Made by a program: the position numbers and the translations under genes
Shown: positions 1 to 39,362 of the stretch, piece after piece
How the letters are laid out: each line of letters begins with the position of its first letter
Numbering within the stretch: position 1 is the first letter of the stretch
Origin: Strigamia acuminata
Taxonomy: Eukaryota; Arthropoda; Chilopoda; Geophilomorpha; Linotaeniidae
DNA length: 64,000 nt
Direction of reading: 5' to 3'
Assembly: GCA_949358305.1 (NCBI GenBank)
Contig: OX442314.1
Coordinates: forward strand, 56,553,369-56,617,368
Notes under the pieces: generated by a model
The model's input: the letters and a program-made list of their open reading frames with translations, nothing else
Database searches by the model: none
Told to the model about the DNA's origin: nothing

Positions 1-182
1 GTGTGTGCACGGATGAAAACACATACGTACGAAACGCTTGGAAAAAAATTTTAAACTCAACACCAACAAGTTTGGTCCAGTGTGATGATATTCTGGTGGA
101 TTTATTTGAAAATGAGAATGTCAACATATCTGCATTATGGGATATTGATTTCCCTGTATTAAATAAAACGGAATTTATTTCG
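1..182 (+). CDS. DEG/ENaC channel, domain A exon after TM1 (partial)
   Basis: The frame is open from the window edge to a GTAAGA donor at 183, ending in phase 0. It encodes about 60 residues of extracellular sequence with one Cys (VQCDDILVDLFE) and ends FPVLNKTEFIS. It resembles the end of the fusion exon at 4074-4890 in spacing (Cys, then ILVDLF/ILSLLD, then an aromatic-acidic tail), which places it just after TM1 of a DEG/ENaC domain. The start of the exon and TM1 lie outside the window. The family assignment rests on the neighbouring exons; this exon alone would not identify it. Confidence 0.55.
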
Positions 183-243: not shown

Positions 244-319
244 AAATCTACGGACAAACCAAATATTCAAATAAGCAAAGAATTGTCCACATATGGAACC
301 TGCGCTGTGATAACGGTTG
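244..319 (+). CDS. DEG/ENaC domain A, exon with YGTC motif
   Basis: This exon is bounded by a CTTACAG acceptor and a GTAAGT donor, with phase 0 in and phase 1 out. It encodes about 25 residues ending STYGTCAVITV, which matches the family's short Tyr-Gly-x-Cys (YGxCYTF-like) extracellular motif. The paralogous domain-B exon at 4949-5009 has the same phases and the matching TPRGICTHYLI. Joined to the preceding exon in phase it gives an uninterrupted frame. The boundaries are inferred by eye from splice consensus and from the A/B comparison. Confidence 0.6.
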
Positions 320-383: not shown

Positions 384-466
384 AAAATATTACGGGTTTT
401 AATTTATATGGCAAATTGAAAATGTGGTTCAATCGACCAGAATTTTGTCCCCCAGGCATACTTTAC
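384..466 (+). CDS. DEG/ENaC domain A, extracellular exon 3
   Basis: A TTTTCTAG acceptor and a GTAAAT donor bound this 83-nt exon, phase 1 in and phase 0 out. It encodes ENITGFNLYGKLKMWFNR and then a Cys-containing stretch ending PGILY. The domain-B exon at 6690-6775 has the same phases and a similar layout (aromatic-rich segment, then a Cys near the end). The sequence similarity is weak. The call depends on position, phase and the parallel exon. Confidence 0.5.
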
Positions 467-529: not shown

Positions 530-616
530 GTGTCAAGCCCAATTCCAGGTAGATCTGTTTTATCAGTCAGTGAAAGTTCAAATGAAGCAAAAAGAAAGAA
601 ATTTAGTTTACAAGAG
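530..616 (+). CDS. DEG/ENaC domain A, possible exon 4
   Basis: A possible 87-nt exon between an ATTATAG acceptor and a GTATTT donor, phase 0 on both sides. It encodes 29 hydrophilic residues starting VSSPIPGRSVLSVSES. Its position and phase match domain-B exon 4 (6841-6945), but the residues do not align convincingly. It could be a chance open stretch in an intron. Confidence 0.3.
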
Positions 617-2722: not shown

Positions 2723-2724
2723 TA

Positions 2725-3879: not shown

Positions 3880-3983
3880 TTTATATTCCTGAATACATCA
3901 TCTAATCCATGCATTGACAAAAAGGATTTTATCAAATGTCACGAGAAATGTCTTCAAGATTTTTACAGTCAACAACCTTGCAG
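3880..3983 (+). CDS. DEG/ENaC domain A, cysteine-rich exon
   Basis: A TTATAG acceptor and a GTGAGG donor bound a 104-nt exon, phase 0 in and phase 2 out. It encodes NPCIDKKDFIKCHEKCLQDF followed by YSQQPCR, the Cys-x3-Cys type pattern of the DEG/ENaC extracellular cysteine-rich region. The domain-B exon at 9081-9187 has the same phases and the same cysteine layout (CIPPNDFYQCKKQCY … TCR). The phase-2 end (TGC AG) joins in frame to the A at 4074, giving CRLPF, exactly as B6 joins B7 to give CRLPY. Confidence 0.75.
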
Positions 3984-4073
3984 GTGAGGGATCATTTTAC
4001 ACACAGGAATAACCATTTAAAATGAATTTGTGAACAAACACAATACCAATACAATTAAATATTGTTTATTCAG

Positions 4074-4890
4074 ATTGCCATTTATGAGTGGAAAGACGGG
4101 CGACACATGCAATACGTCCATTACATTTAAGGTTTACAATAGCATTCGTAATAAACTAAGGAAAATAAACTCAGAATTAAAGTGCTTGTGCAACAGAATG
4201 TGCAATCAAATAGAAGAGCAGATAAAAGTCTACACATCTACTCCATCAGATGCCCCGTTGACCGAATTCGAAAACGAAGCAGTATCAACTGTTATTGAAG
4301 TCATCAGAGAAAGATTTGCTTATGGATTTGTCAATCTACTCATTGATGCAGCCGGAAACATTAGCCTTTACCTCGGCATGTCGATACTTTCAGTTTTGGA
4401 TTTGATCACATTAATCATTAATTATCGAAAACATAATGCAAAGTCACGGAACAATAGTAGAATTTACCTCAAAGTATGGCATTATCTGCACAAAACAAAA
4501 AGCCATTTCTCATCCCTACTGAAAGAAAACGAGCCAATACCTCGCAGCCGTATTCAAAACATACTGGAAAAGGTTGTTTATCTCGGCTGCACCTCTCTGT
4601 TTCTGGTCATGATCTATTTCAAATTGATGACTTATATGGCATATCCCATACGAGTGAACATTGAAGTCGCAGATGAACCAAATGTAACCTTTCCAAACAT
4701 AACAGCTTGTGTAATGACGAATCCGACAACCATTGAATTGGAGAAGATGTATGCTGATGAAAATAATCTGAGTCAGAGTGATTGTCCCATTCACATCTTG
4801 AGTCTACTAGATCTAAAAGGAGAAAACCTCACAATAGAAGAACTGTGGGAGCAATCTTCCTCTGCGGAAATTCTAATCCCCTTTGATTTC
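4074..4890 (+). CDS. DEG/ENaC fusion exon: domain A TM2 to domain B TM1
   Basis: One open 817-nt exon (TTATTCAG acceptor, phase 2 in; GTAAGT donor at 4891, phase 0 out). In order it encodes: the last extracellular cysteines of domain A (CLCNRMC); the pore/TM2 segment AAGNISLYLGMSILSV, with a G-x-S selectivity-filter position (GMS) and a Leu/Ile-rich helix; a basic linker of about 50 residues (RKHNAKSRNNSRIYLKVWHY…); a second hydrophobic helix, VYLGCTSLFLVMIYFKLM, which is TM1; and then VTFPNITACVMTNP, matching the FPxVTxCN motif that follows TM1 in this family. Normal DEG/ENaC subunits have two TM helices, intracellular ends and assemble as trimers. Here a second subunit begins in the same reading frame about 50 residues after the first ends. 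The linker lacks the usual His-Gly gating motif of the N terminus. Expression has not been shown. Confidence 0.8.
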
Positions 4891-4948
4891 GTAAGTAGGA
4901 TAATGCAACTTACCAGATAATCATCTTATAAATGTTACCTTTTGGCAG

Positions 4949-5009
4949 GTACCGTTTTCAGACGCTGAAATAAATACCCCAAGAGGAATATGTACACATT
5001 ACTTAATTG
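4949..5009 (+). CDS. DEG/ENaC domain B, RGIC exon
   Basis: A TTTGGCAG acceptor and a GTGTGT donor, phase 0 in and phase 1 out, 61 nt. It encodes about 20 residues including TPRGICTHYLI, the equivalent of domain A's STYGTCAVITV. It continues in frame from the fusion exon and joins in phase 1 to the exon at 6690, giving LIDEAPYN. Confidence 0.7.
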
Positions 5010-6169: not shown

Positions 6170-6174
6170 ATTAA

Positions 6175-6689: not shown

Positions 6690-6775
6690 ATGAAGCTCCT
6701 TACAACGGCCAAGCCACAATGCTTTTGAAATTTTATGAGGCTCCTACATTGATGTTATGTGACAAATACTACGAG
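6690..6775 (+). CDS. DEG/ENaC domain B, extracellular exon 3
   Basis: A TTTTCTAG acceptor and a GTATAA donor, 86 nt, phase 1 in and phase 0 out. It encodes EAPYNGQATMLLKFYEAP, then LMLCDKYYE. Position and phases match domain-A exon 3. The duplicate at 22760-22845 keeps the frame with one visible change (Gly to Asp), which supports it being a real exon. Confidence 0.6.
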
Positions 6776-6840: not shown

Positions 6841-6945
6841 TTTTTCATAACAACAAGAGAAGACCAAGATTTGGATTTGACTTCAAATGGATTATTATCG
6901 TTCGGAGGTGGCATCTCAGCAGGTGTTGGGTATCGCATGATAAAG
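6841..6945 (+). CDS. DEG/ENaC domain B, exon 4 (GISAGVGYRMIK)
   Basis: A CACAAAG acceptor and a GTGAGA donor, 105 nt, phase 0 on both sides. It encodes REDQDLDLTSNGLLSFGGGI followed by SAGVGYRMIK. This fits the DEG/ENaC palm/finger stretch where an acidic segment precedes a Gly-rich turn and a beta strand. It is kept open in the duplicate (22911-23015), with Gly to Arg near the end. Confidence 0.6.
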
Positions 6946-9080: not shown

Positions 9081-9187
9081 TTTGACCGCATAAATACACC
9101 AATACGAAAATGTATACCACCAAATGATTTCTATCAGTGCAAAAAGCAATGTTACCGCAAAAAACTGAATGGAAAATTAACATGCCG
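9081..9187 (+). CDS. DEG/ENaC domain B, cysteine-rich exon
   Basis: A TTAATAG acceptor and a GTACGT donor, 107 nt, phase 0 in and phase 2 out. It encodes FDRINTPIRKCIPPNDFYQC followed by KKQCYRKKLNGKLTCR, aligning directly with the domain-A exon at 3880-3983 (NTSSNPCIDKKDFIKCHEKC … PCR). The duplicate at 25152-25258 keeps the frame (one Asp to Asn, one silent change). It is a strong family marker because cysteine spacing, phases and the following RLPY are all shared. Confidence 0.75.
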
Positions 9188-11138: not shown

Positions 11139-11508
11139 ATTACCGTACATAGACCAACTGCAATATCCCATGTGCAATACTTCTCAATCGGCAAAAACGA
11201 CTGATTCTATCTACAAAAAGACTTTTCTTGACACAAATGTTAAAAATGAATGTCAATGTCACATTCCCTGCAAAGAATCTAAGTACTCTAGCTTGGCACT
11301 ACACATAGGTCACAAAAGTCTTCTGACCGCTATAATTTACCATTATTTCGAAACAAACAAAATTCAAATTTTTATTGATCGGCTTGAATATGACATTATC
11401 TCGTTCGTTTGCGACATCGGAAATATTTTAAGTTTATCGCTAGGTCTGTCAATATTGAGTGTGGCACGAAAAATGGAAATACTCATTTTTGAACATCACC
11501 GACAATAA
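11139..11508 (+). CDS. DEG/ENaC domain B, last exon with TM2
   Basis: A CTCCACAG acceptor, phase 2 in, open to TAA at 11506-11508. It encodes RLPYIDQLQYPMCNTS, then the family signature NECQCHIPCKESKYSS (C-x-C-x3-C…Y), then a helix-forming stretch, and FVCDIGNILSLSLGLSILSV. That last stretch is the pre-TM2/TM2 with a G-x-S filter position (GLS). The protein ends after ARKMEILIFEHHRQ, a very short tail, so the distal half of TM2 and the cytoplasmic C terminus are reduced. It joins exactly in phase to the exon at 9081-9187. A near-identical copy lies at 40336-40648. Confidence 0.75.
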
Positions 11509-22098: not shown

Positions 22099-22759
22099 TC
22101 GTGAGATCGCAATACCACACGAGGTCGGTGAAATGCAGTTTGTGCCGCGTCATCGCAATGTTCTTTTGGAACATGCGACGAACACGGCGCGTTGGACGCT
22201 CAGGTCCCGATAGACGACAGTGTGGATGTGCCGATCGTTTTGGTATGTTTTGCCATCAGGCACGGGAAGAAGGTCGGGAAGCGACCGTTCACCATGCTGA
22301 TGCAGATTCAACTCTACTGGCCACTGCGGGGCCCACCACTTCAGGAAGGGGCACTTAAGGTTCCCAATTGGCGGAGCCAATGACCAGCAGCTCCACCTGG
22401 TACGGGGGACCGCGCCAGGTTGGGCACAAGAAACACACGAGGTGCGCGAGAGCTGTGGAAGCGCCGTGTGTTGAAGGTAAGTGACACAGACTGTGTGGGC
22501 AGCTGGTCACAATAGTAATAATAATAAAAGAAAATAATAATAAAAAATTAAATTTTAAAATTTTAAAATCTTTTGGTCCTATGCATCGTATCATTCAAAA
22601 AGTTTTTTTTCTAAGATTTAACTGATAAATTTGGGGTACATCTTATGGTCTAACACATTTTATCGTCCGCAAATTATATTAATGCCAATTAACTAATTGA
22701 ATGATGGATTTAACTGAAAATGAGTGAAAATCAATTTAATCAAGACACTTTTTTTCTAG

Positions 22760-23275
22760 ATGAAGCTCCTTACAACGACCAAGCCACAATGCTTTTGAAA
22801 TTTTATGAGGCTCCTACATTGATGTTATGTGACAAATACTACGAGGTATAAAAAGCACATCAATCAGACATTTAATTTCATATGTTAATTGATTGTCATG
22901 TATCACAAAGTTTTTCATAACAACAAGAGAAGACCAAGATTTGGATTTGACTTCAAATGGATTATTATCGTTCGGAGGTGGCATCTCAGCAGGTGTTAGG
23001 TATCGCATGATAAAGGTGAGAAAACTTGAACTTGCCTTACTTTAGTCGAACACATCCATTGGTTCTAAACTCAAAAGGCCATTTACCCGACTGTTTTTAT
23101 ACAGTGTTCCAAGCGAGTAGTTTTTATGGGTCAAAATGGGTCGCAAAGAAAACTTCTGTTTTTGAACATAGAGATTGAGAAAATCACAAGGATAAATGTC
23201 AGAAGACTAGATCCTCAACTTATGAAGGAGTATGGTTCCGAGAACTTGTTCAGTGGGAAAGATTGTTTACCCTAA
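22760..23275 (+). pseudogene. Copy 2 of DEG/ENaC domain-B exons 3, 4 and 5
   Basis: Exon B3' is 22760-22845, B4' is 22911-23015, and B5' is 23105-23275 including the stop. All splice signals and frames of copy 1 are kept. Changes include Gly to Asp in B3', Gly to Arg in B4', and Arg to Gln in B5' (GGTCAAAATGG). No TM1-bearing exon (the 4074-4890 equivalent) or B2 equivalent lies upstream, so this copy cannot make a whole channel domain by itself. It could only be used as extra exons of the upstream gene. Confidence 0.65.
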
Positions 23276-25151
23276 TTAACGAATACATTATTAATCTTAC
23301 TTTTATATTATAAATAAATAAAGGTTCAAATTAAACAACATTAGACAACAATAAGAGCGCGGGTTTAGCATTTGGCCTAAGTAGCTACAAATTGGTAGTT
23401 CATATCTCTGAATGTTCGCAACTTGTGTGTCGCATTAGCTTAGCTTCGCCGCTCAATGCTTTGAGCTTTAACTTGATTAGGCATCGATTGAAGTTGAGTT
23501 TGGGTTCGAGTGGCCGTACGTGTTATAAGTACGTGTTAGCACTCATTTCTTGCCCGACTTCAATAGCGAGGTGGTTGCTGACGCGTTGGGATAATACTCG
23601 GCTCTCACACTTCTATGTGTTGTTTCTGGTTACAGGCATAGTCAAGCTTGGCTTAATCTTACCGACGCGCCGGGATAATACGCATTTTTGTGTGGAATTC
23701 GAGTTGTTTCTGATTCCAGTGGCTACTGAGCAATTCCGTTCCCCCATTTTTACGGCTCGGGAGGACCCGGCAAAATTAATTTGTGTTTTTGTCAGTATCT
23801 GGAGTGTGTGCCACCTATATCCAGGTGCACATTCACGGCTGGGCAGGTACTCACGAACCAGGCTCCCAGAGATTACTGTATCGCGGCATCTTTCAAACGC
23901 GTCCAACTAACTCCTTGGAAACGCGACTCGTTACAGGGTTAGATTTTATTTGTCATGTTGGTTTGGCTTCAGCTCCCCAACTTTAGAATGCAGTTGAAGC
24001 AATTAAACAATTAGTGTTTGCTCCAATCGGAGCACCTGTGTACATATTTAATGCCATGTAGAAATCTTGTAGAAATCTTGTGTAGAAATCTTGTGTGGAC
24101 ACTTGTTCTAGTTTCCTACAAATATAAGAACAAAATAGCGACTCTTCTACAACTTGATGTCACAACTCTAAGTCCCCCCACCATTCTGTCACGTGACTGA
24201 TCTTAGAAATATCCAAAATAAAAGAAGGATGCCAATCCAACTTTTAAGGATACTTTCGACAGTACAATAAAGTACTTTTAAATGCATGAAAAAATTTATA
24301 CAATACTTGTACATCAAAAGATAGAGAATGAAACAAGCTTTCTTTTAAAATGGTTCGTGAAATACAAGCATAAATGCGTTTCGGTTGCTTCAGTTAGAGT
24401 GGAAACAAGATTGTGACCTTTGTTTTGGCCCCAAAATCATCTACTTTGAATGCAGAAAAAAAGTATCATTATCTACAAGTGGAAAAGCAAACCCCTACCT
24501 TTCAGTGGACAACATTTTGCCAGACATAAACAATCTCACTAGTTGTGCTTTGTAGAGGTGCATTATTTACTCCAAGTAAAAAAAGTCACTGATTTCTACA
24601 AAATTAATCTCTAAGTGTGAATGGTCTTAAAATAGATCGTTCACACTTGTAGAAATTAGACTTTCTAAAAATCACAACTTCTACAAAAGTGGTTCAAGTG
24701 TAAACGAGGCATTAGACAAAATAAAACTTCAACCTTAGTGAATATACAATTCTCCTGGTGGACACTTGCTTAGTCGTTTCTTCAACTTGCATTTTAACTT
24801 CGTACGAAGCCAGAGACTTTTAGGACCGTGATTAACTACGATGCTCTTCATAAAATGAATTTCAATCACATTTTTCCAGGGACAACAACTGTTGACTATA
24901 TTGTAAAACATAACTTGTTGGGTCAAAAAAAAATTTTTTTTCTCGAAAATTTGGGTTGACATAAAAAAAACATTGAGTCATATGGAATAGCCTAGGCCCC
25001 AAAAAATGTGCCCACTCCACACTCAACAAAGTCCAGTCGCAGTAGTACGAGCTTTGTTGGCTGAACTAAGATTGATTGATTGAATCCTGGTGACTGTGTA
25101 ATTATTACAAAAATATAAAACTGAAAAATAATTTGTTAAATTTATTAATAG

Positions 25152-25258
25152 TTTGACCGCATAAATACACCAATACGAAAATGTATACCACCAAATAATT
25201 TCTATCAGTGCAAAAAGCAATGTTACCGCAAAAAACTAAATGGAAAATTAACATGCCG
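25152..25258 (+). pseudogene. Copy 2 of DEG/ENaC cysteine-rich exon B6
   Basis: Same length (107 nt), acceptor, donor (GTACGT) and phases as 9081-9187, with cysteines intact. The next exon (40336) is now 15 kb away because a Gypsy/Copia nest landed in the intron. Confidence 0.65.
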
Positions 25259-25548
25259 GTACGTTTGTATTGGTATACAGTATACGCACCCATTCATTAA
25301 AATATCAAAATTCCTAAACCAAACATCAGAAAAAATATTTATTCACTTCTTTCACACAAATTCTATTTATTGTTTTGGCCACAAATTATTCGCTCCTCAT
25401 CTTTGACTCATTTTACCCCCAAGAAGGACTTAAAGTCCTCCAAATAAAAATATTGTTCTCCCCTAATATTAATTTCTCCAAATAAAAGGTTTTAAACCCT
25501 AACATTTTCCACCCATATATTGCCAAAATACCCCAATTCTTATTTTTA

Positions 25549-25760
25549 GTTTTATTGTGAATACAATTCTTGCTCACGATGTCGGTGGTTTACGAGGAGT
25601 CAGACTCTCAAGGCGCAATCGGGTGCTGGCTTTGCACAATGGGCAAAGCAAGCAGAGGTCTCAAATACACAATTTATCTTTTCAGTGGTGATATTTATTT
25701 AATACAAGCGACAAAATAAAGTGAGATCACCACAGTTTTATTGTGAATACAATCCTTGCT
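25549..25760. repeat. 26-bp direct repeat around a 160-bp insert
   Basis: GTTTTATTGTGAATACAATT followed by CTTGCT occurs at 25549-25574 and, with one change, at 25735-25760. The 160 bp between them (25575-25734) are absent from copy 1. The pattern fits a tandem duplication or a small insertion. Confidence 0.6.
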
Positions 25761-25977
25761 TAGTATTCGAACTGGCGTTGTCGATGGTGTTTCTGACCGA
25801 TGGGTACAGTTTTTGCCTCTGATGGTAAAAATCATATCTTTCAAACGTACATCTTTGCAAACTTGGGGCCTGTGCAAGTTCCAGTCAACGTTTTCAATCT
25901 TGTCAAGCCACAAATGATTTCTTGAATAGATATGACTCGGGCATCCAATGCCTGAACAAAAATTATTTGTGGCATAT

Positions 25978-26497
25978 TGTTACGAGGGTGACGATCACAC
26001 TGTGAACCAGTTGTCGCCACCTCGCTTCCGTAACTAAACGATTCGAATTAATTCTGTAAACCCTCATTAGAGTTCGCCTTAAGCGAATGATGTCATTAAT
26101 TTACCCATTAAATTGTAGTAGAATCACCCAAGTTTACTTGGCTGATAAGGAGAGCTGAATTATCAGTTCATTCCGAGCTTTCATACCGAGAGGTTGTCGG
26201 GCAGTTATTGCTGCGGCATCTTGAGGTTCTTCACCCACCAAAGTTATTCATGCTTACTAGATTTAAGATAGTTTTATAAGATTTAGTTTTAAGTTAATTC
26301 TTATTTCATTTCAGATTGTATTTATGATTTAATAAACATGTCTTCTTATATTTTTATATTGAATCAATGAGTCCTCTTTATTTCCTTCTTATTAGCAACA
26401 CAGTTTAAATGCTAGTTTAACCCAATGCAATTATAAACCCCCAGTTACAAATAAAGTATTTACGTGGTCAAACAGTAGTCAGTCTGGCCACGTAACA
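25978..26497 (+). repeat. Gypsy 5' LTR
   Basis: 520 bp, TG..CA ends. Three differences from the 3' LTR are visible (G here, A there in all three). An AATAAA lies near 26330. The primer-binding site right after it (AAGTGGTGGAGATTGCGG) was not assigned to a tRNA. Confidence 0.9.
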
Positions 26498-27155
26498 AAG
26501 TGGTGGAGATTGCGGTTCTTTCTGTTTGAAACCCATTAATTGGCTAAAAGTAGTGAAAATTAGTAAAAAGTAAAGTGAAATTGGCCAGTTATTTGCTAAA
26601 ATCAGATGATCCAGTTGAAATCCGTACAAAGTTGCATTGAAATTTGGTAAAAATTGAATAAAAATCATATAAAATAGTGAAAAGTTGCAAACTCATTTGC
26701 ATGAGTGATAAGATTGGAAGGTGACTCATTGTGAAAATTTTCTTTTTAGGTCAATTGAAGTTGAATAATTAATTAAAGTGCACTAAAAAGATTTACATTT
26801 TTGAATTTATTAAAGATATTTACCCAAGTTGAATTTATAATAAAATGAGGTTGTTTTGAAGGTTAAGAGTGGTGAATATTGAATGTTTGTTTAATGATAA
26901 AACTTATATTAATAATGATTCAATTATAGGAAATGTTTTCTTTTTGGTTTATGTTGAAGTTTATGTTGATTTTGATGATTAATTTTGATTATTTTTCAGA
27001 AAATAATAATATATTTTTTTTGTTATTGAAATTTATTTTGAATTAGTGACTAATTGTGATAATTAATTGTGCATAAGATTATTTCAGGTTAGGTAAACGA
27101 AGTGAAGTGTGTTTTGAGGTGTTTGTGTAGAGATAAATAAAGAATAAATTAAGGC

Positions 27156-28151
27156 TTGACAGTGGAGGAGTTAGTTAAGCTCACGCAAGCACAAGCGGAT
27201 AATTTACTGGACTTAAAGAATCAAGAATTAGCAAGATCAGTGGATAAGTCCAAAGTAACTGAGAGAAAGAGAAAGACAACTTCACAGTCGGAGCCTGGAG
27301 TAAAGGAGGTTGAACAACATACTTCCACATTGGATGATAAAATTGTTTTTGCAACCCCATTGAAATTTGCGCAATCAAAGTCTTTTCAATCAGTATTTGA
27401 ATTACTAACACCAGTAAAATTAAAGGAATCCACATCAAAAGGAACAGTATCTAAGATGGCGGATCCAACAACAGTTTTGACTGATCTTCTCAAGGGTATT
27501 TTGATACAAAAGCGCGAAGTTGTTTGTTATGATACAGAAAAAGGTAACATCGACCAATGGCTTGTGGCTTATGAAGCTACAATAGCATCAGATGATGAAC
27601 GAGTGAAACAATTGCCGTTAGCCCTTAAGACTGACGGACTGGCATGGTTTGTGGAACAATATAAAACGAATCCAACTTGGACTTGGAAAGAATAGAAGCC
27701 ACAAATCGAAAAGAAGTTTAGAAAAAGCCAGGAAAATGTATTGAACACTCTTCATTTTATGAGGCATACAGATGGTAAAGCCGATGCGTTTATGAAGAAA
27801 GTCTTGGCCGAATGTGCTTATGCGCGACCAGAATTACCTGAGAATTTGAAGCTTAACTATGTTTATCAAGGATTGAAGCCAAAAATGCAAAAAATGTTGA
27901 TTACTGTATTCCCGAAGACTTTGGCGGACATGGAAGAAAGAATTAAGTTGTTTGAAAGTCACAAGATAAAGGATCCAGCAGATGTTCTACTCGCAATGTT
28001 TAAAAAAGTCGTGGATGAAAAGGTGATCCCGGTAACAGCAGGTAAACTGAGTGGAACTGAGGGGACCCAACCAACCCACTCTGAGCTTTTAGCTGAAGTT
28101 GCAGATTTAAAACAGCGATTATTGGCAGCAGTCAGTGGATCTGTTGGATGA
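27156..28151 (+). pseudogene. Gypsy gag, nonsense mutation
   Basis: One frame from 27156 to TGA at 28149, interrupted by a TAG at 27693-27695. The natural start seems to be the TTG at 27156 (followed by TVEELVKLTQAQADNLLDL), possibly a mutated ATG; the first in-frame ATG is 27456. The capsid-like region includes WLVAYEATIASDDERVKQLP and, after the stop, YVYQGLKPKMQKMLITVFP, which is typical of retrotransposon gag. The stop replaces what is likely a Trp codon (TGG to TAG). Confidence 0.75.
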
Positions 28152-28488
28152 AGAGTCGATATTGATACAAAATCAGTGGTATGCGCCAATAAGGAATAGG
28201 GGACAGTATAATCAAGGAGGTAGAAGTAGAGGTGGAAGACAAGGCTTTAATCCTAATTATAATAATTATAATACTAACAGTAATAGTAATAATTCTAATA
28301 ACCGTTCATGCGGATGTTATCATCATTTCAGCTGTGAGTTTTACAATCCGCCCAGGCAACAACAACAGCAACAGGAAAGAGGTGGAAGTAACAGCTGGAA
28401 GTGGAACAAAAAGTTGAGAAGAGGTGATAATCCAGATGGAAACCCTAATCCTCAGGGACAGACGAAAGTCCAGAATTCGAAAAACTAG
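28135..28488 (+). pseudogene. Gypsy nucleocapsid-like tail, shifted frame
   Basis: In the +1 frame relative to gag. Rich in Gly, Asn, Gln and Arg (GRSRGGRQGF, an Asn run, RQQQQQQERGG), with a Cys/His cluster CGCYHHFSC that departs from the usual C-x2-C-x4-H-x4-C knuckle. It overlaps the end of gag, so a single-base indel probably separated it from the gag frame. Confidence 0.55.
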
Positions 28489-28586
28489 TTGAACAGCCAC
28501 AGAGAAATTGTTGCCACCCAAAGAAAAGGAAAAGACAAAAGAAGAACAGTAAGATAGTTATAGTTGACGTACAGGTATCAGAGTCA

Positions 28587-30275
28587 TTGTTGGAAATCCC
28601 AGTAATTGTAAAAGAAATGGAAATAAAAGCAGTAATGGACACTGGAGCCAAACGAAACCTTCTAAGTGAAGAAGTCGCAATAGCCCTTCAATTGGATTAT
28701 TCACCGAGCCCTAACATTAGGCTACGTGGGATAGGAAAGGATTTGGTAGTTCCAGTGGGTAAAACAAAGATTAACATTGCAATTGGAAAACTGACCTATA
28801 AAGTGGAAGTGTTAATAGTGTCAGGATTTCATCATCAGCTTTTATTGGGGGATCCATTCATGAGGTCAACGAGAACTGTTGTCGATTATGATTTACAAAA
28901 AATCTTTGTGGGCCGGAACAATGATAGTGGAGTAGAAGAAGCAGTTTTTCCAATAAATAAATCATTTTCGGACCAGAGTTATGTCGCCAGAGTGATGAAG
29001 AATATTTCAATTCCACCAATGCATGAATGCGTTATACCAGTTTATTTAAATACAAAATTAACCACAGAAATGTTTATGGAACCTCTAGGAAACGTAATAG
29101 ATAGGTTTGGAATTTTGTGTTGTAAAACATTAACGAATTTTGAGTATGGTAAAGGAGTTCTGCGTGTGGCTAATCCAACAAACAAATCAGTCTTCTTGAA
29201 AGAGAAATCTGCAATTGGTAAGGCGTATTACATTATTGAGATTGGGTTGTTGGATGAAAAGCAAGTGCATTGCATTGACTTCTCAGCCAAAGCGGTTGAG
29301 TTGTCAGATGAAAAGCAAGTGCATTGCTTTGACTTTGACTCCTCAATTGCTAAAGATAAGATGAACAAAAGCCAACAAGAGCAGATGAAGCAGTTACTTC
29401 AGAAGAACCAGGATAGATTTGCAGCCACAGACAAAGACTTAGGTAGAGTAACATCATTTAAACACAGAATTAATACGGGGGACCATGATCCAATACATTT
29501 GCAGCCTTATAGACGTTCAATCGCAGAAAAAGAAGTAGAGGCAGAAGAGACCAGAAAGTTGCTTGAGATGGGAGTCATTAGGGAGTCAGAAAGCCCATGG
29601 AGTGCGCCAGTACTACTCATCAAGAAAAGAGACGGTAAATGGAGGTTTTGTGTCGATTGGAGAAAGTTAAACGCGATCACAAAAAAAATGGTATACCCAC
29701 TGCCCAGGATTGATGACACCTTAGATCAACTGGCAGGGGCCCAGTATTTCTCGATGATGGATCTTATTCAAGAATATTTCCAAGTCGAGATAGATGAACA
29801 AGACCGTGAGAAAATAGCGTTTACCACTTCAAGCGGGCATTTTGAGTTCAATGTCCTCGGACAGGGGTTATGTAATAGCCCGGCCGCGTTTCAAAAATTG
29901 ATGAATAAAGTGCTTGGTAATCTTCTTGGTAAGGTCTGTATAGCCTATATTGACGACCTTATCATATTTTCAAAAACATTTGACCAACATCTTCAGGATC
30001 TCGATGCTGTCTTCAATAAACTGCGTTTGGCAAACTTGAAGGTCAAATTGAGTAAGTGTACATTTGGTACTAATACCATCAAATATTTAGACCACATTGT
30101 TGATTCTGATGGAGTGTCACCTGATCCTAGGAACTTGGAAAGTGTCGCTAAATTTCCAAAACCAACAAATTTGAAGCAGTTGAGGTTTTTTGGGTTTATG
30201 TTCGTATTATCGAAAGTTCATTCCAGGATTTGCGGACGTATCCAAGCCCTTAGCCAACTTAACTCGCAAAGATGA
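28587..30275 (+). pseudogene. Gypsy pol part 1: protease and reverse transcriptase
   Basis: Aspartic protease with VMDTGAKRNLLS at about residues 16-27. Reverse transcriptase from about residue 325: SPWSAPVLLIKKRDGKWRFC, then DWRKLNAIT, LGQGLCNSPAAFQ, and the catalytic YIDDLIIFSK. The frame breaks near 30190, just after the palm domain (LKQLR, then out-of-frame residues). The original frame downstream also carries a TGA at 30286-30288. Two substitutions at normally Gly positions (IQEYF for IQGYF; YLDHIV for YLGHIV) are G-to-A changes. A 54-nt tandem duplication with DEKQVHC in each copy lies at 29253-29345. Confidence 0.85.
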
Positions 30276-30345
30276 AGCTTTTGATTGAGGACCACCACAG
30301 GAAACAGCTTTTAAGGCCTTACGAACAGCTTTAGTCACGGTACCA

Positions 30346-31149
30346 GTGTTGGCACATCCAAATTTCGCTGAGCCATTCATTGTATCTACGGATGCAAGTG
30401 CTTATGGACTTTGTGCGATTCTGAAGCAACGTATTAACAAACAAGAACATGTGATTTGTTATGCCAGTCGATTGTTGAGTACGGCAGAACAAAATTACAC
30501 AGCTACAGAAAGAGAATGTTTAGCCATAATATTCGGCATTAACAAGTACAGACCATATCTTTACGGTAGGAAATTTACAATTGTAACAGACCATTCTGCG
30601 TTACAATGGTTGAATAAGGTGAAGAATCCCAACGGTAGATTGGCCAGGTGGAGTTTACAACTGGTAGATTATGACTATGATGTGATGCACAAGTCAGGCA
30701 AGAAGCACACGGACGCAGATGCTCTTAGCCGAATTCAAGAAGAGAGTGGTGAGGAAGAAAAAGAAATTATTCTCTTATTACTTCTCGAAAAACTCAACTT
30801 ACCTGTCGAACAGCGTAAGGACGAGAAAATTTTGGAGATCATCACCGCAATGGAGAATATTGAGCAACTTCCAAGGAACAGGAAACGTCCTTTAAAACAG
30901 TTCGTTCTTCTGGATAACATTTTGTTTAGTAAGAAAAGTTACAATTCTCTTAACATGGAAGGAAACCTTTTAGTAGTACCGCAGCATTTACGTAAGCAAG
31001 TGTTAGAAGAAATGCATGACGGGCTCGTAGGTGCTCATCTCGGCCTAAATAAGACGTGGAAAAGGATTAGAGTAAGATTCTTTTGGCCGAGGATATATAG
31101 TGACGTAAGGAATTACGTACTCTCTTGTCCACATTGCGCAGGAAGTAAG
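30346..31149 (+). pseudogene. Gypsy pol part 2: RNase H and integrase zinc-binding
   Basis: Continues pol in another frame. RNase H: FIVSTDASAYGLCAIL, TERECLAIIFGINKYRPYLY, VTDHSALQWL, DADALSR. Then the H2C2 zinc-binding module: GLVGAHLGLNKTWKRIRVRF, ending CPHCAGSK at the Copia insertion (target site GTAAG at 31145-31149). The integrase core resumes at 37110. Confidence 0.85.
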
Positions 31150-31487
31150 TGTTGGATATTGTAAACCTCTTGTATACATATTTATGTCGTCTCATCAAGC
31201 GACACTGTTGTTTACTATTGTTAATCTTAACCGATCATGTATCCTTATTTGCACTTACCTGCACGACTGGCTGCAGTACTATTTGTATCATGTTGACATT
31301 TATTACTTTGTATTTCATCCACAAGGTGGCGCTGTATACCTGTGGGTCATGTGACTGCAGAGAATAAACTCACTCCATGTTCTGATTCTCAACTGATGGC
31401 ATCCCAAGTCATTTCTCCTCACAACATGTTTTTCCAAGTCACTGCACAATTCTGCAGCTTGTATTAATAGAAAGCTGTTCCACAACA
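31150..31487 (+). repeat. Copia 5' LTR
   Basis: 338 bp, TG..CA. Same sequence as 36772-37109. AATAAA near 31364 is a likely polyadenylation signal. Confidence 0.93.
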
Positions 31488-31488
31488 A

Positions 31489-31499
31489 GGTTATGGGCC
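31489..31499 (+). promoter_or_regulatory. Copia primer-binding site (initiator tRNA-Met type)
   Basis: GGTTATGGGCC one base after the LTR. Drosophila copia uses GGTTATGGGCCCAG, complementary to the anticodon-side stretch of initiator tRNA-Met, and the first 11 bases match here. Confidence 0.65.
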
Positions 31500-32283
31500 A
31501 ATATAACGTTGGAAAAACGTTTGGAGTGATTTTGGAAGTTTTTCCATCATTTGGAGGTCAGCAGTGAAGTTTTTCCTCCAAATCCAAGATGGCGGCGCCC
31601 ATGGAGGAAAATGTCAGCTTGTGTTTGTGCCGAGAATCAACGGTTTTGGAAGCCACAACTAGACATCCAATCACACAGGAACATTAATCGGGTTCGAACA
31701 GTATTACACTATTTATTTACGAGTTTGTTTTTCCGTTTTTCGGACGATTTTTTCCCGTATTGCGAGGCGCAATACGTTTCGCCGACGTGACACCATCTTC
31801 GAGCGAGAAGACGGGGCGACGACGGTGATAAATTCCCAGCAACCACACGGGAAGTGTGAACGGGAATTTAACCAAACGAAAACGGACAAAAAGGATTCCA
31901 AAACAAAGGAAATTATTGGACAAATTGGGGTTATTTCCGGACGAAAATCGGCGTTTTCCACGTTTCTACAAGAGTGAGACGAGGACAGCATTTCTCGACA
32001 ACCACACGGGAAGTGTGAACGAGAATTCGAGACAGCGCACAACAACTGGAAATTTAATGAACAATTTGCCATATTTATCGAGAATTTTTGCATCTTTATT
32101 CGATATTATTTGATATTACTGCATTGTTAGCTTAGCGTTGTACTAGGATAAACACTAACCTAATTTAAGAGCGAACTAACATCGCAACACTGCACCCAGT
32201 TGCGATTACCAGTATTATCAGTGTTTTTGACGAAATAAGTGTGTGGATTCAGTGTTTTTCAAGTGGCGGACACTTAATTCGAG

Positions 32284-35200
32284 ATGGATACGGACAAACC
32301 AGAAAGAAAGGTTACACTGCTGAACAGGACCAACTATGACAGCTGGAAACAGCAGATCAAAGTACTTTTGATGCATCACGGATGCTGGGCGTTTGCGGAA
32401 GGGATGGAGGAGGCTTTGGCACCTGGAGCATCTTGGCGCGACCGCTCGGACTTCAAGCTACGACAAGGAAGAGCTTTCAGCTTGATTTATTATTCGATAG
32501 AGGAGCAGTATCACGAATTGCTCAGCGGGGTCGACGACGCCAAGAAGGCTTGGAACACATTGAAAGCAAACTTCGAACCAGTCTCAAGAGCGCGGATAAT
32601 TCGTTTGTTGGACGAATTTTTCAGTCTGAAATACGACCCAGCGACGGAAACAATCGGAGTCTTCGCAGCAAAGATTCGAAACGCGGCGAAGAAGCTCGCC
32701 GACGTTAAACACAAATTGGAGGACTTATACCAAGCTTTTCAGTTAATTCGGTATCTGCCAGCAGAATATCAATCGATTGTCCAGGCGATTTATCGGTGGG
32801 AGGACGCGAATTTTACTTTGGAAAAGGTGGAAGTCGAATTGGTCGCAGAAGAGGGACGTTTGGCCCAACAACGAAGGGATTCGGGTCAGGGACCAATAGT
32901 GGACGCTTTTAGCATGGGCACGAGCGCCACAAACACCAAAACCAGCGATAATTCACAGCAACAAGGGAATACTGGCCAAAATAGTCGAGGAGGATATCAA
33001 GGCGGACAAAAGGGCGGAAGATCGAATTACCGCGGCGGCAAAAACACGAGGAATTTTAGAGGAAATGCAACCGGATCACCAGGACGGGGGCCGTGTTTTC
33101 GCTGCAACAAACAAGGACATTGGGCGAAGGATTGTATAGTGCAACTCGCACCAAATAATTCGAACAACCAGTTGAACACAAATACCGCGGAAGAATTGGA
33201 CAATAACATGCTAGATGTCGGTTTCCTCACGGAATTAAGTCAGGAGGAGATGCTGCAATGCAGCACAGCCAACAACTGTTGGATTTATGACACCGGGGCC
33301 ACAGGACATTTCTGTAAGGACAGAAACCAATTCTTCAATTTCAAAGAGACAAGTGGAACAATAAGTCAAGCGGATAAAAAGACACTAATTCAAATCCAGG
33401 GCGTAGGGGATGTTTGCATAATGTGTTTGGTCGGGAGTGAGACAATTCCAATCACATTAAAGAAAGTTTACTACGCGCCAGATTTAAGACGGAATTTGTT
33501 ATCGGGGCCGTGCATCGACGAAGCCAGATGCAAAGTCGCCGTGGGTTCTGGACTTGTCAAAATTTATGATCCACAATGGAAGAGGCAATTGATGGAGGGA
33601 GTGAAGAAGGATAGGCTCTACTACATCAAGTTGAGCGACCAAAAACCCGACTTTGACAAGCTAAGACAGAAGGAGAGCAACAAAGTTAATGTTGGTGAAG
33701 GAAAGCAACAAGGATCAATTACCTCAACCAAGAAGATGTCAAATCCAGAAGAAGCAAGGCTTTGGCATGAGCGACTAGGGCACATTTACTTTCCAAGCGT
33801 GCAGGAAATGAGTAAAGGCGATGCAGTCGTTGGACTTCCTATTTTGGATGTGCCCATCACACAATGTGACGTTTGCGATTTAGCAAAGAAGAAATCTGTT
33901 TCACACAAGTCTATACCTGGGATCAGGTCGAAACAGCCACTGGAGCTCTTACACATGGATGTATGTGGAGCATTCAGCACAGCAACTCTGTCGGGAAATA
34001 GGTATTTTCTGACGATAACGGATGATTTTTCGCGTTACTCCACCGTCTACTTAATGAAGCACAAGGATGAAGTTTTCGATTTGTTCTGCAAACACGCGAA
34101 ACGTATTGAGCGACTGTTGGGGAAGTCAATTCTTGCGATCCGAACAGACAATGGAATGGAGTTCTGTTCCAACAAATTTGGACAATATTTGGAAGAACAA
34201 GGGATCGCACACGAACGCACAAACGCGTATACACCTGCCCAGAATGGAGTTTCGGAGAGACTCAATCAAACACTAGCGAATGGCATGCGAGCACTTGTAT
34301 ACGACGCGGGATTGGAACATCGATTCTGGGGTGAAGCCATCTTAACCTTCAATTACCTGAGAAACAGGATAGCCAAGTTAAAGTCAGATAAAACACCAAT
34401 GGAACTTTACTATGGTCGTAAGCCATCCTTACGCCATTTAAGAAAATTTGGAAGTTTGTGCTTTGTTCAAAAGAAAGTTCGAGACGGCAAGATAGACAAC
34501 AAAGGCATACACGGAATAATGCTCGGATATTCCAGGGTCACAAAAGGATATAGAGTTTGGCTCCCGGAATTTTCTAAAGTCATTGAAACCAACAATGTCA
34601 AGTTCGTGGAAAGCAGGCGCGGAGTTGAAGGCGTGCTGGGCCTACCGGACAAATATACGACGTATATCGACAGTTTGGACGATAATTTGGATAACAACAA
34701 TGATCGTCAATATTATTCCGATGAGGATGTGAGGCCACCGCTACCCCCGCCAGCACCAATAAAGAAGGAAGAGGAAGAGGAATTACCTCCAGTTAGACTG
34801 AAGTTCAGACAGCCAGATGATGCGTTGCGACACAACTTGCCAGCAGTGAAGCAACCAAACATTTTGCAACAACCTGGACAGGGTTTTCCAAACCCAATTC
34901 CGAACATACCAGCTCTCGTGTGGAAAAAGACCGAGAAGACAAGACCAACGGGTCAGAGGGACATTGAATATACAATCGAAGGGTATGACAAGCCAAGGTT
35001 GCGTTCCATTCCGGAAGTGAAGCGCTACTGTGTTGAGCATAACCTTCGTCTCCCGGAACATTTGTTTGACGACAAAAGAAAGAAAAAGCCCTCTGAATCG
35101 AATACGACGGCGGATAATCTTGACGTGGACTTTGATGATATAAATATCAACTTCGAAGCTAATCACCTAGAAGTCCACGTACCCGTACGTTATGAGGAAA

Positions 35201-36753
35201 TCGCGACTTTACCCGAAAGAAATGAATGGCGCCAAGCGATGAACGACGAGATTGGCACCATGCATGAGCGCGAAGTTTGGGAACTTGTTCCACCACCGCC
35301 CAACACTAAGATAGTGGGTTGCAGATGGATTTACACGACCAAACAGAACGAAGAGGGGGAGATTGCGCGTTATAAGGCGAGACTTGTCGCGCAGGGTTTC
35401 TCCCAAGTCTACGGCGAGTCGTATGAGGAGACATTCTCACCCGTGGTAGACTTTTCGATCGTGCGCTTCATGTTCACGCTGCTCGTCTGTATGCTCAAAT
35501 GGTCGTACATTCAAGCCGACGTCAAGTGTGCGTACCTTTACGCAAAGTTGCATAAGACCGTCTACATGCGACAACCAAAAGGTTTCATCATTGAAGGCAA
35601 AGAAAACTATGTCTGCAAGCTCCTTCGAGCCATATACGGACTGCACCAATCCGGAAGGGAATGGGGCATAGAACTGGAGGAAGCTTTATTGAAACTAGGA
35701 CTTGAGCACGTAAACTGGTGCAATTGCGTTTACAAATATGGCAGTGTTGCATATTTGATCGTGTACGTGGACGATATAGTCGTCTTTGGAAAACATCATG
35801 AAGATGCGATGAAGGTTCTCGACATGATCGCAACGCGGTTTGACTTAGTCATACTTGGACAAACAAAGAAGTTGTTAGGCGTCGAATTTTATTCGTACAA
35901 GCAACAAATGATTCTCCATCAAAAGTCGTACATCAACAAGGTCCTTTTGAAATTTAAGAACCATTTGGACTCTGTAAGAATTCGATCGCAACCAATGACT
36001 AAAGCTACTATTCTCACGAAGCAAGGGTGTCCAACCACGATTGACGAGTTTAAGACCATGGAAACAATTCCCTATCGAAGCCTACTTGGATGTTTGGCGT
36101 TCATTGCGTCGAGGACGAGACCCGATTTGACGTACGCCGTAAACATCCTAAGTCAATTCCAATCGAACCCAGGCTGGGATCACTGGATTGCGCTGCTAGA
36201 CCTGCTTAGCTATTTGAGAACAACGAAAAATCATGGATTAATGCTGTTCCCAAACGATCGGATTGAAGTTATCGGATATAGCGACTCCGATTACGCTAAC
36301 AACAGGGACGACCGGATCTCCGTTGGAGGAACTCTTGTGACTTTGGGAACTACGCCCATTTATTGGAGGACCTTCAAACAACGAAATGTCACATTATCAA
36401 CTATGGAGGCCGAATATGTGGCCCTTACAGAAACTGTTAAGGACTACATCTGGATCGTCCGGGTTCTACATGAAATCATCCCCGATTTGGCGGACAAATT
36501 TCCTCACCATGTTCTATGCGACAATATTTCAACGGTAGATTTCACCAAATCCTGCGTTGAAAATAGAAAGACAAAACACATAGACGTGCGATACCATTTC
36601 ATAAGAGAGCTCGTAAGAAGAGATAACCTCCATATCGTGCATGTGGGCACCAAATACAACCACGCGGACATCTTTACGAAGTCTGTTGACAAAGTTGATT
36701 TGCTGCGCTTTTGTGATCGGTTTCTGATTGATCTAAACCTCATAAGTGCTTGA
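32284..36753 (+). CDS. Copia gag-pol polyprotein
   Basis: 1489 residues from ATG 32284, a single uninterrupted frame, the usual length for Copia. Order: gag (NRTNYDSWKQQIKVLL at the start); zinc knuckle CFRCNKQGHWAKDC (about 271); aspartic protease IYDTGATGHF (about 335); GAG-pre-integrase LWHERLGH (about 493) with CDVC; integrase HMDVCGAF, IRTDNGMEFC, NGVSERLNQT (about 557-660); reverse transcriptase GCRWIYTTKQ, KARLVAQGFSQ, IQADVKCAYL, and YVDDIVVFG (about 1160); RNase H IGYSDSDYA, LSTMEAEYVAL and KTKHIDVRYHFIRE, HADIFTKS near the end. All catalytic residues visible are in place. Protease, integrase, RT and RNase H order (IN before RT) is diagnostic for Ty1/copia. Expected to act in cytoplasmic virus-like particles. 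Confidence 0.95.
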   Translation: MDTDKPERKVTLLNRTNYDSWKQQIKVLLMHHGCWAFAEGMEEALAPGASWRDRSDFKLRQGRAFSLIYYSIEEQYHELLSGVDDAKKAWNTLKANFEPVSRARIIRLLDEFFSLKYDPATETIGVFAAKIRNAAKKLADVKHKLEDLYQAFQLIRYLPAEYQSIVQAIYRWEDANFTLEKVEVELVAEEGRLAQQRRDSGQGPIVDAFSMGTSATNTKTSDNSQQQGNTGQNSRGGYQGGQKGGRSNYRGGKNTRNFRGNATGSPGRGPCFRCNKQGHWAKDCIVQLAPNNSNNQLNTNTAEELDNNMLDVGFLTELSQEEMLQCSTANNCWIYDTGATGHFCKDRNQFFNFKETSGTISQADKKTLIQIQGVGDVCIMCLVGSETIPITLKKVYYAPDLRRNLLSGPCIDEARCKVAVGSGLVKIYDPQWKRQLMEGVKKDRLYYIKLSDQKPDFDKLRQKESNKVNVGEGKQQGSITSTKKMSNPEEARLWHERLGHIYFPSVQEMSKGDAVVGLPILDVPITQCDVCDLAKKKSVSHKSIPGIRSKQPLELLHMDVCGAFSTATLSGNRYFLTITDDFSRYSTVYLMKHKDEVFDLFCKHAKRIERLLGKSILAIRTDNGMEFCSNKFGQYLEEQGIAHERTNAYTPAQNGVSERLNQTLANGMRALVYDAGLEHRFWGEAILTFNYLRNRIAKLKSDKTPMELYYGRKPSLRHLRKFGSLCFVQKKVRDGKIDNKGIHGIMLGYSRVTKGYRVWLPEFSKVIETNNVKFVESRRGVEGVLGLPDKYTTYIDSLDDNLDNNNDRQYYSDEDVRPPLPPPAPIKKEEEEELPPVRLKFRQPDDALRHNLPAVKQPNILQQPGQGFPNPIPNIPALVWKKTEKTRPTGQRDIEYTIEGYDKPRLRSIPEVKRYCVEHNLRLPEHLFDDKRKKKPSESNTTADNLDVDFDDININFEANHLEVHVPVRYEEIATLPERNEWRQAMNDEIGTMHEREVWELVPPPPNTKIVGCRWIYTTKQNEEGEIARYKARLVAQGFSQVYGESYEETFSPVVDFSIVRFMFTLLVCMLKWSYIQADVKCAYLYAKLHKTVYMRQPKGFIIEGKENYVCKLLRAIYGLHQSGREWGIELEEALLKLGLEHVNWCNCVYKYGSVAYLIVYVDDIVVFGKHHEDAMKVLDMIATRFDLVILGQTKKLLGVEFYSYKQQMILHQKSYINKVLLKFKNHLDSVRIRSQPMTKATILTKQGCPTTIDEFKTMETIPYRSLLGCLAFIASRTRPDLTYAVNILSQFQSNPGWDHWIALLDLLSYLRTTKNHGLMLFPNDRIEVIGYSDSDYANNRDDRISVGGTLVTLGTTPIYWRTFKQRNVTLSTMEAEYVALTETVKDYIWIVRVLHEIIPDLADKFPHHVLCDNISTVDFTKSCVENRKTKHIDVRYHFIRELVRRDNLHIVHVGTKYNHADIFTKSVDKVDLLRFCDRFLIDLNLISA

Positions 36754-36760
36754 TAATACG

Positions 36761-36771
36761 AGGGGGCCGAT
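36761..36771 (+). promoter_or_regulatory. Copia polypurine tract
   Basis: AGGGGGCCGAT directly before the 3' LTR, the plus-strand priming site. Confidence 0.6.
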
Positions 36772-37109
36772 TGTTGGATATTGTAAACCTCTTGTATACA
36801 TATTTATGTCGTCTCATCAAGCGACACTGTTGTTTACTATTGTTAATCTTAACCGATCATGTATCCTTATTTGCACTTACCTGCACGACTGGCTGCAGTA
36901 CTATTTGTATCATGTTGACATTTATTACTTTGTATTTCATCCACAAGGTGGCGCTGTATACCTGTGGGTCATGTGACTGCAGAGAATAAACTCACTCCAT
37001 GTTCTGATTCTCAACTGATGGCATCCCAAGTCATTTCTCCTCACAACATGTTTTTCCAAGTCACTGCACAATTCTGCAGCTTGTATTAATAGAAAGCTGT
37101 TCCACAACA
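36772..37109 (+). repeat. Copia 3' LTR
   Basis: 338 bp, matching the 5' LTR throughout by eye. Confidence 0.93.
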
Positions 37110-38401
37110 GTAAGTCAATGACCACTCCACAAAAAGGTTTAATGCAACCTTGGTCGACAATTTCAAGACCGTTCGAGAGGATTGGTATAGACACGTTAGG
37201 TAGCTTTCCAGTTTCACAAAATGGAAATAAGTTTGTTTTTGTCGTAACTGATTATATGTCGCGTGCAGTCATCGCTAGAGCGGCTCCAGCATGTACAGCG
37301 TTGGAAGCAGCGAAAACTCTTGTGTACGAGGTAATGCTCAAAGAGGGAAGTCCACGCGAAATACTCAGCGATAAGGGGATGGAATACAGGAACGAAATGA
37401 TTAATGAAGTATCAGCACTGTTTAAATCCCAGCACAAATCTACTTCCGGGTACCATCCTAGGACCAACGGATTAACGGAAAGATTTAATGCAACGTTTGC
37501 TAAAATGTTGACATGTTACACTAATAAAGATCATACAGATTGGGATGAATTTTTACCATTTGTCATTTTCTCCTATAATTCTGCAGTCCATGAAACAACT
37601 GGATATACCCCATATTATTTGTTGAAAGGTTATGAAGTTGATTTGAGTGTGGACCTGAACTTGAACCTTCCTCGAAAGGAATTCACTCTTCGCACTTCTA
37701 GATTTATGCGGGAGATGCGGAAAATTGCCAATGAAAGATTAGAATGGCAGAGTGAGAAGAGCAAGAGAAGATTTGATTTGGACAGAATTGTAGTGGAATT
37801 CGAACCGGGAGAATTAGTTTACTTGAAAACTCCAAATAGGAAAGTAGGGTTAAGCGAAAAACTCCTGCCACCATTTTCTGGACCATACGAAATAGTTAGA
37901 TGCACAGCGCCAAACGATTATGAAGTAAGGAATTCATCAGGAAAGAAATCTAGCATTGTTAATGTGGAACGTTTAAAACCATATAAGCCACGAGAGGAAA
38001 TTCCAGAAGCTATCCTGCAAGATTTGCCACCAAAGAGGGTAACATTTTCAGACCAAGTGCAAGAAAATTCGCAAAAAGACGATCAAAATGCGGAAATTGT
38101 GAAGAAAGACGAAGATTCGCGAGATAGGCCTAAATTAGAAGCAAAGGAAAGGTTTATCGATGACGACGATCAAATTTCGTTACGGGGACTGTTCGAACCA
38201 GAGCAAGTTGATTTAAAACAACAAAATCAGTTGCCAGAATCGTCGCCAGGCGAAAACAAGAAGAATCGGTCGCAGAAACCATCACCAGGTGTCGCAAGCG
38301 CCGTACTACCCAACACGCATGCGCAGCCACCTGTTGGAAGTGATTTCCGGTCACGCCGACTTAGATCGCAACCACGCCAAGATTACACTGCATTTTACTA
38401 G
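37110..38401 (+). pseudogene. Gypsy pol part 3: integrase core and C-terminal tail
   Basis: The frame continues directly from the Copia target duplication. Integrase D,D-35-E residues: GIDTLGSF, ILSDKGMEYRN, GLTERFNATFAKML. A chromodomain-free basic/acidic tail follows (PPKRVTFSDQVQENSQKDD…RSRRLRSQPRQ) to the stop at 38399. LSDKG for the usual LSDRG is again a G-to-A change. The fold appears intact, but it is cut off from the upstream pol by the nested Copia. Confidence 0.85.
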
Positions 38402-39362
38402 CTTTTCCTTGAACGAACGCAAGTTATTTGCAGTGAGCGAAGGGAATTGTTATTCTTCAGGGTGTGATTGACGAGGATTTTGTGTAGTTTCAGTGAAAGT
38501 AGGTACTTTTATTTGACGAAAGTTGATATAAACGTTGACGAGACGTGATGTGATTTTGAAGTTGTATTTTCTTGATTTTCGAGGCGAACGCAAGTTATTT
38601 GCAGTGAACCGAGAATGACTTGAATTTACTTGATGATTTGGACAATTTTGAGACAATTTTCTATGAATTTTGGATGATATGAATAAAAGCGACAGGTTGA
38701 TTGTACATGTGAATTATATTAGTCATTAATGAATTTTGCACATCGGTATATCGAAGATAGGGACAACATGCGCCATGGCCATCCCATCGATTTGCGCCAG
38801 CGTATAGTGTACGAAATTCTACACGAGAGGCTAATCCCATTCGAGAAGGAGGAAAATCAGCCTTAATCGGACATTAAGTGTTGTAAAATTTTTTTTTTGT
38901 TTGTATTATTTGTTTTTTTTTGTCAATGATGTGAGCCCAGGTGTACTGGAGCGAGCAGAGACATATTTTTCATTATTTGAATTTGATATTATTTTTCTTT
39001 CATTTAATTTTGTCATTGTTTTCATTTTCATTTATACTAAATGTAGAATATTGTATTATTTTCATTTGAGATGGTTTAGTCTTTATATAGAAAACAGGAA
39101 AAATGAACAGAAAAAAAATAGTAATATAAGTGCGAAAAAATCAAAAAAGTGTTATCTTGGAAAGTGTGTTTGTGTAATAATTGACGTATTATTTTGAATT
39201 TTGTAGTTTGAAATTGTTTCTAGTAAATATTGTTTAAAGTGTAAATTTTGTGAAAGTAAGCATGAATAACAGGGAATGAACTCATATATAAGCATGAACA
39301 ACGAGGGAGTTGGTTTAGTTAAATAACTTGTTTTTGGGGTCCAAAAAGCTAAAGGAGGGGGC
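38402..39362 (+). other. Gypsy 3' untranslated region
   Basis: 960 bp without an env-like ORF. A 23-base motif starting CGAACGCAAGTTATTTGCAG occurs twice (about 38412 and 38584). The region ends with the polypurine tract AAAGGAGGGGG at 39351-39361. Confidence 0.6.

Follow-up and report, generated by a model that had tools for sequence, protein, structure and literature searches.

A centipede gene with two DEG/ENaC domains fused in one reading frame through a single exon, a candidate natural two-subunit channel chain

Introduction

The usual DEG/ENaC architecture is one domain per polypeptide, with the N- and C-termini of the subunit both located in the cytosol. Judged by sequence, the nearest solved relatives of the locus described here are two centipede channels, BRTNaC1 and PDPNaC1. 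PDPNaC1 is a proton-gated DEG/ENaC channel of Scolopendra antennae, which is described in PMC12714832 as a homotrimer of subunits with one domain of 421 residues, and as a working channel also without the canonical His-Gly (HG) motif. BRTNaC1 (Broad-range thermal receptor 1), found in the same centipede species, has one domain as well. PMC9822975 gives as the family hallmarks 11-14 conserved ectodomain cysteines, the HG motif and a Trp before TM1; because PDPNaC1, a member of the family, does without the canonical HG motif, we take the HG motif and the Trp as common rather than defining marks of DEG/ENaC proteins.

Subunits of this kind have already been joined by hand. Trimeric ASIC concatemers with 19-residue linkers function, according to PMC10329638, which indicates that end-to-end joining of such subunits is tolerated. 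From PMC5449180 it is also known that Na+ selectivity of ASIC1a requires Glu at position 18', close to where TM2 ends on the intracellular side, that the normal permeability profile collapses when two of the three ASIC subunits carry E18'Q, and that E18'D reduces ASIC single-channel activity.

Here we analyse a 64,000-nucleotide stretch of the Strigamia acuminata genome (the window), in which two DEG/ENaC domains follow each other in one reading frame. As read from the DNA, this arrangement departs, at the level of the gene, from the usual architecture of the family.

Results

The central feature of the locus is an exon at 4074..4890 of the plus strand, which is at once the last exon of a first DEG/ENaC domain (domain 1) and the first exon of a second one (domain 2), with no intron between. 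It lies between splice sites, with TTTATTCAG directly to the left of 4074 and GTAAGTAG directly to the right of 4890, and its coding frame starts at 4075, because base 4074 completes an Arg codon that is split by the preceding intron. The coding frame is free of stops, against 19 and 24 in the two alternative frames, and the probability of 272 open codons arising by chance at the local composition is about 7e-9. Taken alone, the exon matches the Pfam family PF00858 (ASC) in two stretches, with 42.5 bits at a curated cut-off of 23.6 bits.

Both transmembrane segments of this exon are genuine as judged by homology. TM2 of domain 1, LLIDAAGNISLYLGMSILSVLDLITLII, occupies 4336..4419 (plus strand), is recognised also by hydropathy, and contains the GxS filter motif as GMS (4375-4383). 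Upstream of the linker, the exon is similar to PDPNaC1 in both the CxC...C region and TM2 (E 1.2e-6), and the matches of its TM2 part to FaNaC (E 0.004) and ASIC1 (E 0.015) are weak and cover TM2 only. TM1 of domain 2, VVYLGCTSLFLVMIYFKLMTYMAYPI, which is followed by VTFPNITACVMTNP, is placed at 4573..4650 (plus strand) by hydropathy and by homology to ASIC5 (9mkz/9mky): the part after the linker matches ASIC5 with E 1.3e-5 over TM1 and the VTFPNITACVMTNP segment, and FaNaC1 (8on7) weakly, with E 0.017, over the same span. ASIC5, a one-domain channel, resembles domain 2 in its cytosolic segment before TM1 and in TM1 itself, but has Trp just before TM1, where domain 2 has Glu and so lacks the Trp of the hallmark list. 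The structure predicted for the fused exon without relatives had a mean pLDDT of 38.9 and a pTM of 0.26 and was not used as evidence.

To this exon we chained by hand ten further ones, which gives a single 691-codon frame (3-11508) over 11 exons, with GT-AG at all ten introns. The exons and splice sites were picked by eye from open frames, homology and the available sites, so that the agreement of phases described below is partly by construction, the sites having been chosen with frame and homology in mind. The whole model scores 66.8 bits against PF00858, at the same cut-off. The best PDB match of domain 1 is PDPNaC1 (9jf7, E 1.4e-14), with which it has in common the cysteine segment, the CRLPFM motif and TM2; for the sequence running from 4075 through the stop codon it is BRTNaC1 (8ymr and relatives, E 2.6e-15), matched over the two final exons of domain 2, and a two-domain profile aligns BRTNaC1 from TM1 to TM2. 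At the filter BRTNaC1 has GIC, unlike the GMS and GLS of the two domains here.

In the domain 1 part, all of it on the plus strand, the exon at 3..182 is an open frame that covers the extracellular region after TM1; its 5' part lies beyond the window, it ends at a donor GTAAGA in phase 0, and its counterpart in domain 2, by alignment, is the terminal part of the fused exon. It is followed, each time between AG and GT sites, by exons at 244..319 (with the STYGTCAVITV segment, ending in phase 1), 384..466 (entered in phase 1 and left in phase 0), 530..616 (phase 0) and 3880..3983, which ends in phase 2, carries the cysteine segment NTSSNPCIDKKDFIKC and was aligned to PDPNaC1 (9jf7). An end at 315 for the exon at 244..319 broke the frame, and the next GT, at 319, was taken. 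The N-terminus and TM1 of domain 1 would lie beyond the left edge of the window, which contains TM2 as the only helix of this domain; since the 5' end of the gene is also beyond the edge, the gene may contain further domains.

Domain 2 is complete, with two TM helices by homology and hydropathy. Its further exons, again on the plus strand and with AG and GT sites at the intron borders, are 4949..5009 (ending in phase 1; its acceptor is poor, -1.6 in leave-one-out scoring), 6690..6775 (ending in phase 0), the less certain 6841..6945 (phase 0; its acceptor, -1.7 in leave-one-out scoring, was picked to keep the frame), 9081..9187, which ends in phase 2, carries the cysteine segment RINTPIRKCIPPNDFYQC and was aligned to BRTNaC1, and the last exon, 11139..11508. 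The latter contains the CxC...C region, TM2 (about 11392-11490) with the filter motif GLS (11443-11451, plus strand) and, soon after TM2, the stop codon (11506-11508). Thus the initial annotation was right in placing the run from TM2 through a linker to TM1 on one uninterrupted exon, and its borders for this exon and its neighbours (3880-3983, 4074-4890, 4949-5009) were reproduced; the exons to its left and right are family members too, as it had claimed. Its wider statement, that two DEG/ENaC domains are fused in one frame, is borne out by homology, by splice sites in phase and by the common intron pattern, with domain 1 being represented by its part within the window.

One further open reading frame, 7035-7205 (CSKRVVFMG...CLP and a stop), lies after a possible acceptor in an intron of domain 2, and in the partial downstream copy described below it is open, with one residue changed. 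It was rejected as an internal domain 2 exon, as it ends in a stop and the two-domain profile without it already aligns to solved channels from TM1 to TM2; from its sequence it could be an alternative last exon.

The two domains are homologous to each other, with 22% identity (63 of 289 alignment columns) and a BLASTP E of 7e-12. All five introns that can be compared stand at equal places, within two alignment columns, and in identical phases (0, 1, 0, 0, 2). Eleven cysteine columns are common to both domains, whose aligned parts contain 12 and 14 Cys when the TM segments are counted and with domain 1 incomplete. The matching intron positions and phases make the halves look like tandem duplicates joined through the last exon of one and the first exon of the other, and the simplest history that the sequence suggests is a tandem duplication followed by the loss of the stop, of the intergenic DNA and of the start between the copies. 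The fusion at the genomic level is close to certain.

The protein database searched, a collection perhaps poor in animals, whose silence would then carry little weight, yielded no relatives, neither for the joined model (0 of 6745 candidates), nor for the two-domain profile (0 of 5536), nor for the fused exon (0 of 648), and a scan of IMG/VR with the fused exon gave 10 stretches that fit the pattern, none of which was confirmed. A natural two-domain DEG/ENaC protein was likewise absent from the literature matches listed, taken by their titles and the beginnings of abstracts, a negative of weak weight, as several of the searches were noisy and listed a minor share of their matches, and subscription journals lay mostly outside the scope. 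Protein databases include predicted proteins with two ASC domains, which are often blamed on merged gene models.

The surroundings of the gene are rich in mobile elements. Exon-by-exon comparison, together with self-comparison of the window and translation, revealed at 22679..40643 (plus strand) that the 3' part of domain 2 has been copied recently, with its 5' side truncated, in the segments 22679-25557 (98.2% identity), 25735-25977 (88.5%) and 39878-40643 (92.9%); the copy of the exon 6690..6775, for instance, is found at 22760-22845 (98.8%). Copied exons are 96.4-99.0% and copied introns 90.6-100% identical to the original, and the copied frame meets an in-frame stop at the filter. Because of this stop, and with exons about as diverged as introns, we judge the copy to be probably a pseudogene fragment outside the gene. 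It is split by an LTR element (25978-39883) with 521-base repeats, 99.4% identical, at 25978-26498 and 39363-39883. This LTR element, with a pol that we take to be of Gypsy type, is itself split by a Copia-type element flanked by two fully identical (100%) 338-base repeats (31150-31487 and 36772-37109), and by their sequences the two appear as nested recent insertions.

A Pfam scan of eight further frames revealed the kinds of domains that characterise Gypsy (a label of ours), Copia, Pao, Helitron and MULE elements. Among the elements of the window there is a Pao/BEL frame at 55954-61398, with 1815 codons from stop to stop, which looks young by its sequence and has identical 300-base repeats at 55773-56072 and 61365-61664. 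A tandem array at 53182-54788, made of 29.8 copies of a 54-base unit with 98% matches, is open in one plus-strand frame and in three minus-strand frames. On the minus strand, 62696-64000 encodes a MULE transposase domain and then a RING-type zinc finger, in a frame that is cut at the right edge.

Discussion

From our analysis it would be logical to suggest that one DEG/ENaC gene was duplicated in tandem and that the copies were fused, the last exon of the first and the first exon of the second becoming a single exon, and that a single spanning transcript would be translated into one chain that supplies two of the three subunits of a trimeric channel. For this reading as a whole we consider the chances evenly balanced. 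That one translated chain is made is rather likely; that the two domains form a working linked pair is close to an even matter.

The strongest competing explanation, which we regard as rather improbable, is that the fused gene, transcribed or not, is by now non-functional, a decaying pseudogene in a transposon-rich stretch. The many transposon frames around the gene are in line with it, as is the downstream partial copy of domain 2 with its stop at the filter. Decay may also be read from domain 2 itself. With 18' counted from the GxS motif (Gly as 10', the numbering used in PMC5449180), this position is Asp in domain 1 (4399-4401, plus strand) and Arg in domain 2 (11467-11469, plus strand), whereas both PDPNaC1 and BRTNaC1 have Glu, and the linker sequence before domain 2 contains no HG motif. 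However, PDPNaC1 works without the canonical one (PMC12714832), and the 691 codons run through 11 exons without a stop or a frameshift, all introns being GT-AG, provided that our choice of sites is right. Against decay speak also the cysteine columns, since their conservation at so low an identity between the domains suggests that selection acted for a long time, whether the fusion came later or earlier.

The second competing explanation, somewhat less probable still, concerns the linker: two tandem one-domain genes may overlap at this exon, their transcripts ending in the linker or being spliced into it, in which case the continuous frame would be incidental. The linker, for which the initial annotation had estimated about 50 residues, measures 51 residues, or 153 bases (4420..4572, plus strand), from TM2 of domain 1 to TM1 of domain 2. 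Of so short a stretch openness says little by itself, as 55 codons are open by chance in 2% of cases by composition and in 5% in sampled DNA of the window, and 45 codons in 9%. Its codon composition is not coding-like either: the 51 codons score -0.11, the mean of the null set is -0.09, and among its 753 overlapping stretches of open non-coding DNA 66% do at least as well; the alternative frames 1 and 2 of the linker, with stops dropped, give 0.04 and -0.01, no worse than the coding frame, the model having been trained on the other exons of the same gene, whose amino-acid make-up differs from that of the linker. There are, moreover, two acceptor-like sites in the linker, at 4475 (score 4.0) and 4526 (3.4), which stand near the 90th percentile of 476 intronic AGs (3.6) and outscore the modelled acceptors at 4949 and 6841 in leave-one-out scoring; domain 2 may accordingly have a separate 5' exon, and alternative or separate transcripts may be made.

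Several features of the exon weigh against two overlapping genes. The initial annotation had pointed to a stop or a poly(A) site inside the exon as the mark of two separate proteins. No stop was found anywhere in the exon after TM2 of domain 1, and the linker contains neither AATAAA nor ATTAAA, while three poly(A)-like hexamers do occur earlier in the exon, at 4150-4176, within the ectodomain of domain 1. Position 4378 belongs to the domain 1 filter and 4609 to TM1 of domain 2, and no ATG between the two is in frame. Lacking a stop, an in-frame ATG and a poly(A) signal in the linker, separate genes would need extra splicing inside it, and donor-like sites in 4395-4600 reach 2.3 at most, less than every one of the ten modelled donors (4.2-9.7, leave-one-out), in a space of just those 153 bases between the two helices. 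The case for a fused gene rests on the whole structure and not on the linker by itself.

An assembly error that brought together two exons which are apart in the real genome is very improbable, for although near-identical duplicates of the kind that can confuse assemblies are present in the region, the duplicated DNA begins at 5591, downstream of the fused exon, no second copy of which was found in the window, the exon protein matched just one other place in the window (E up to 1), namely the duplicate of the final domain 2 exon at 40337 (E 0.022), and the reading frame is preserved across the joint.

We propose, returning to the fused gene, that its product would be one membrane protein with four transmembrane helices, in the order TM1, ectodomain, TM2, linker, TM1, ectodomain and TM2, with both termini and the linker on the cytosolic side. 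With 12 K/R and 3 D/E (and no Met), the linker is basic, as a cytosolic segment should be, and we infer that it is cytosolic. The ASIC5 match begins within it (PRSRIQNILEK versus NRSKIRRVLWL), so that the linker seems to end in what was once the N-terminus of domain 2 in the cytosol. With cytosolic termini and a basic linker, the topology allows two subunits in one chain. Most likely the chain would give a trimeric channel two subunits that sit side by side, and an extended chain of 51 residues could, as we infer, easily bridge them.

The engineered ASIC concatemers of PMC10329638 and PMC5449180 join a cytosolic C-terminus to a cytosolic N-terminus, as the gene here would. They are hand-built from three subunits, and the present gene joins two domains; their Gly-Ser-Ala-rich linkers of 19 residues were added, in PMC10329638, to the subunits' own cytosolic ends, while here there are 51 residues in all from TM2 to TM1. 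As the engineered linkers extend native ends, the concatemers are no proof that 51 residues between TM2 and TM1 suffice.

As a linked pair of domains can occupy no more than two of the three positions of a trimer, the third has to come from elsewhere, and the stoichiometry would be only partly fixed, less than the initial annotation had proposed; a one-domain subunit may sit in the third place, or else a domain from a second such chain. With Asp in domain 1 and Arg in domain 2 at 18', an asymmetric channel with weak Na+ selectivity would be expected, or domain 2 may serve as a regulatory subunit. We put forward more tentatively, and consider doubtful, the stronger idea of a constitutive natural concatemer, in which one chain would always set domain 1 beside domain 2. 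The trimer would then be asymmetric by necessity, with D and R mixed in the ring of the intracellular pore filter, and its function would be set by the third subunit or domain from outside.

If one chain is indeed made, a trimeric family would have taken the step of domain duplication, as the four-domain sodium and calcium channels did, and the question is raised of how a two-domain chain builds a channel with three-fold symmetry. It would also provide, if true, a test by nature of what a fixed order of subunits does in this family, whose order and stoichiometry have been studied with hand-made concatemers. Even if the product is not one chain, the locus would still be a clear example of how genes duplicated in tandem can merge via their terminal exons.
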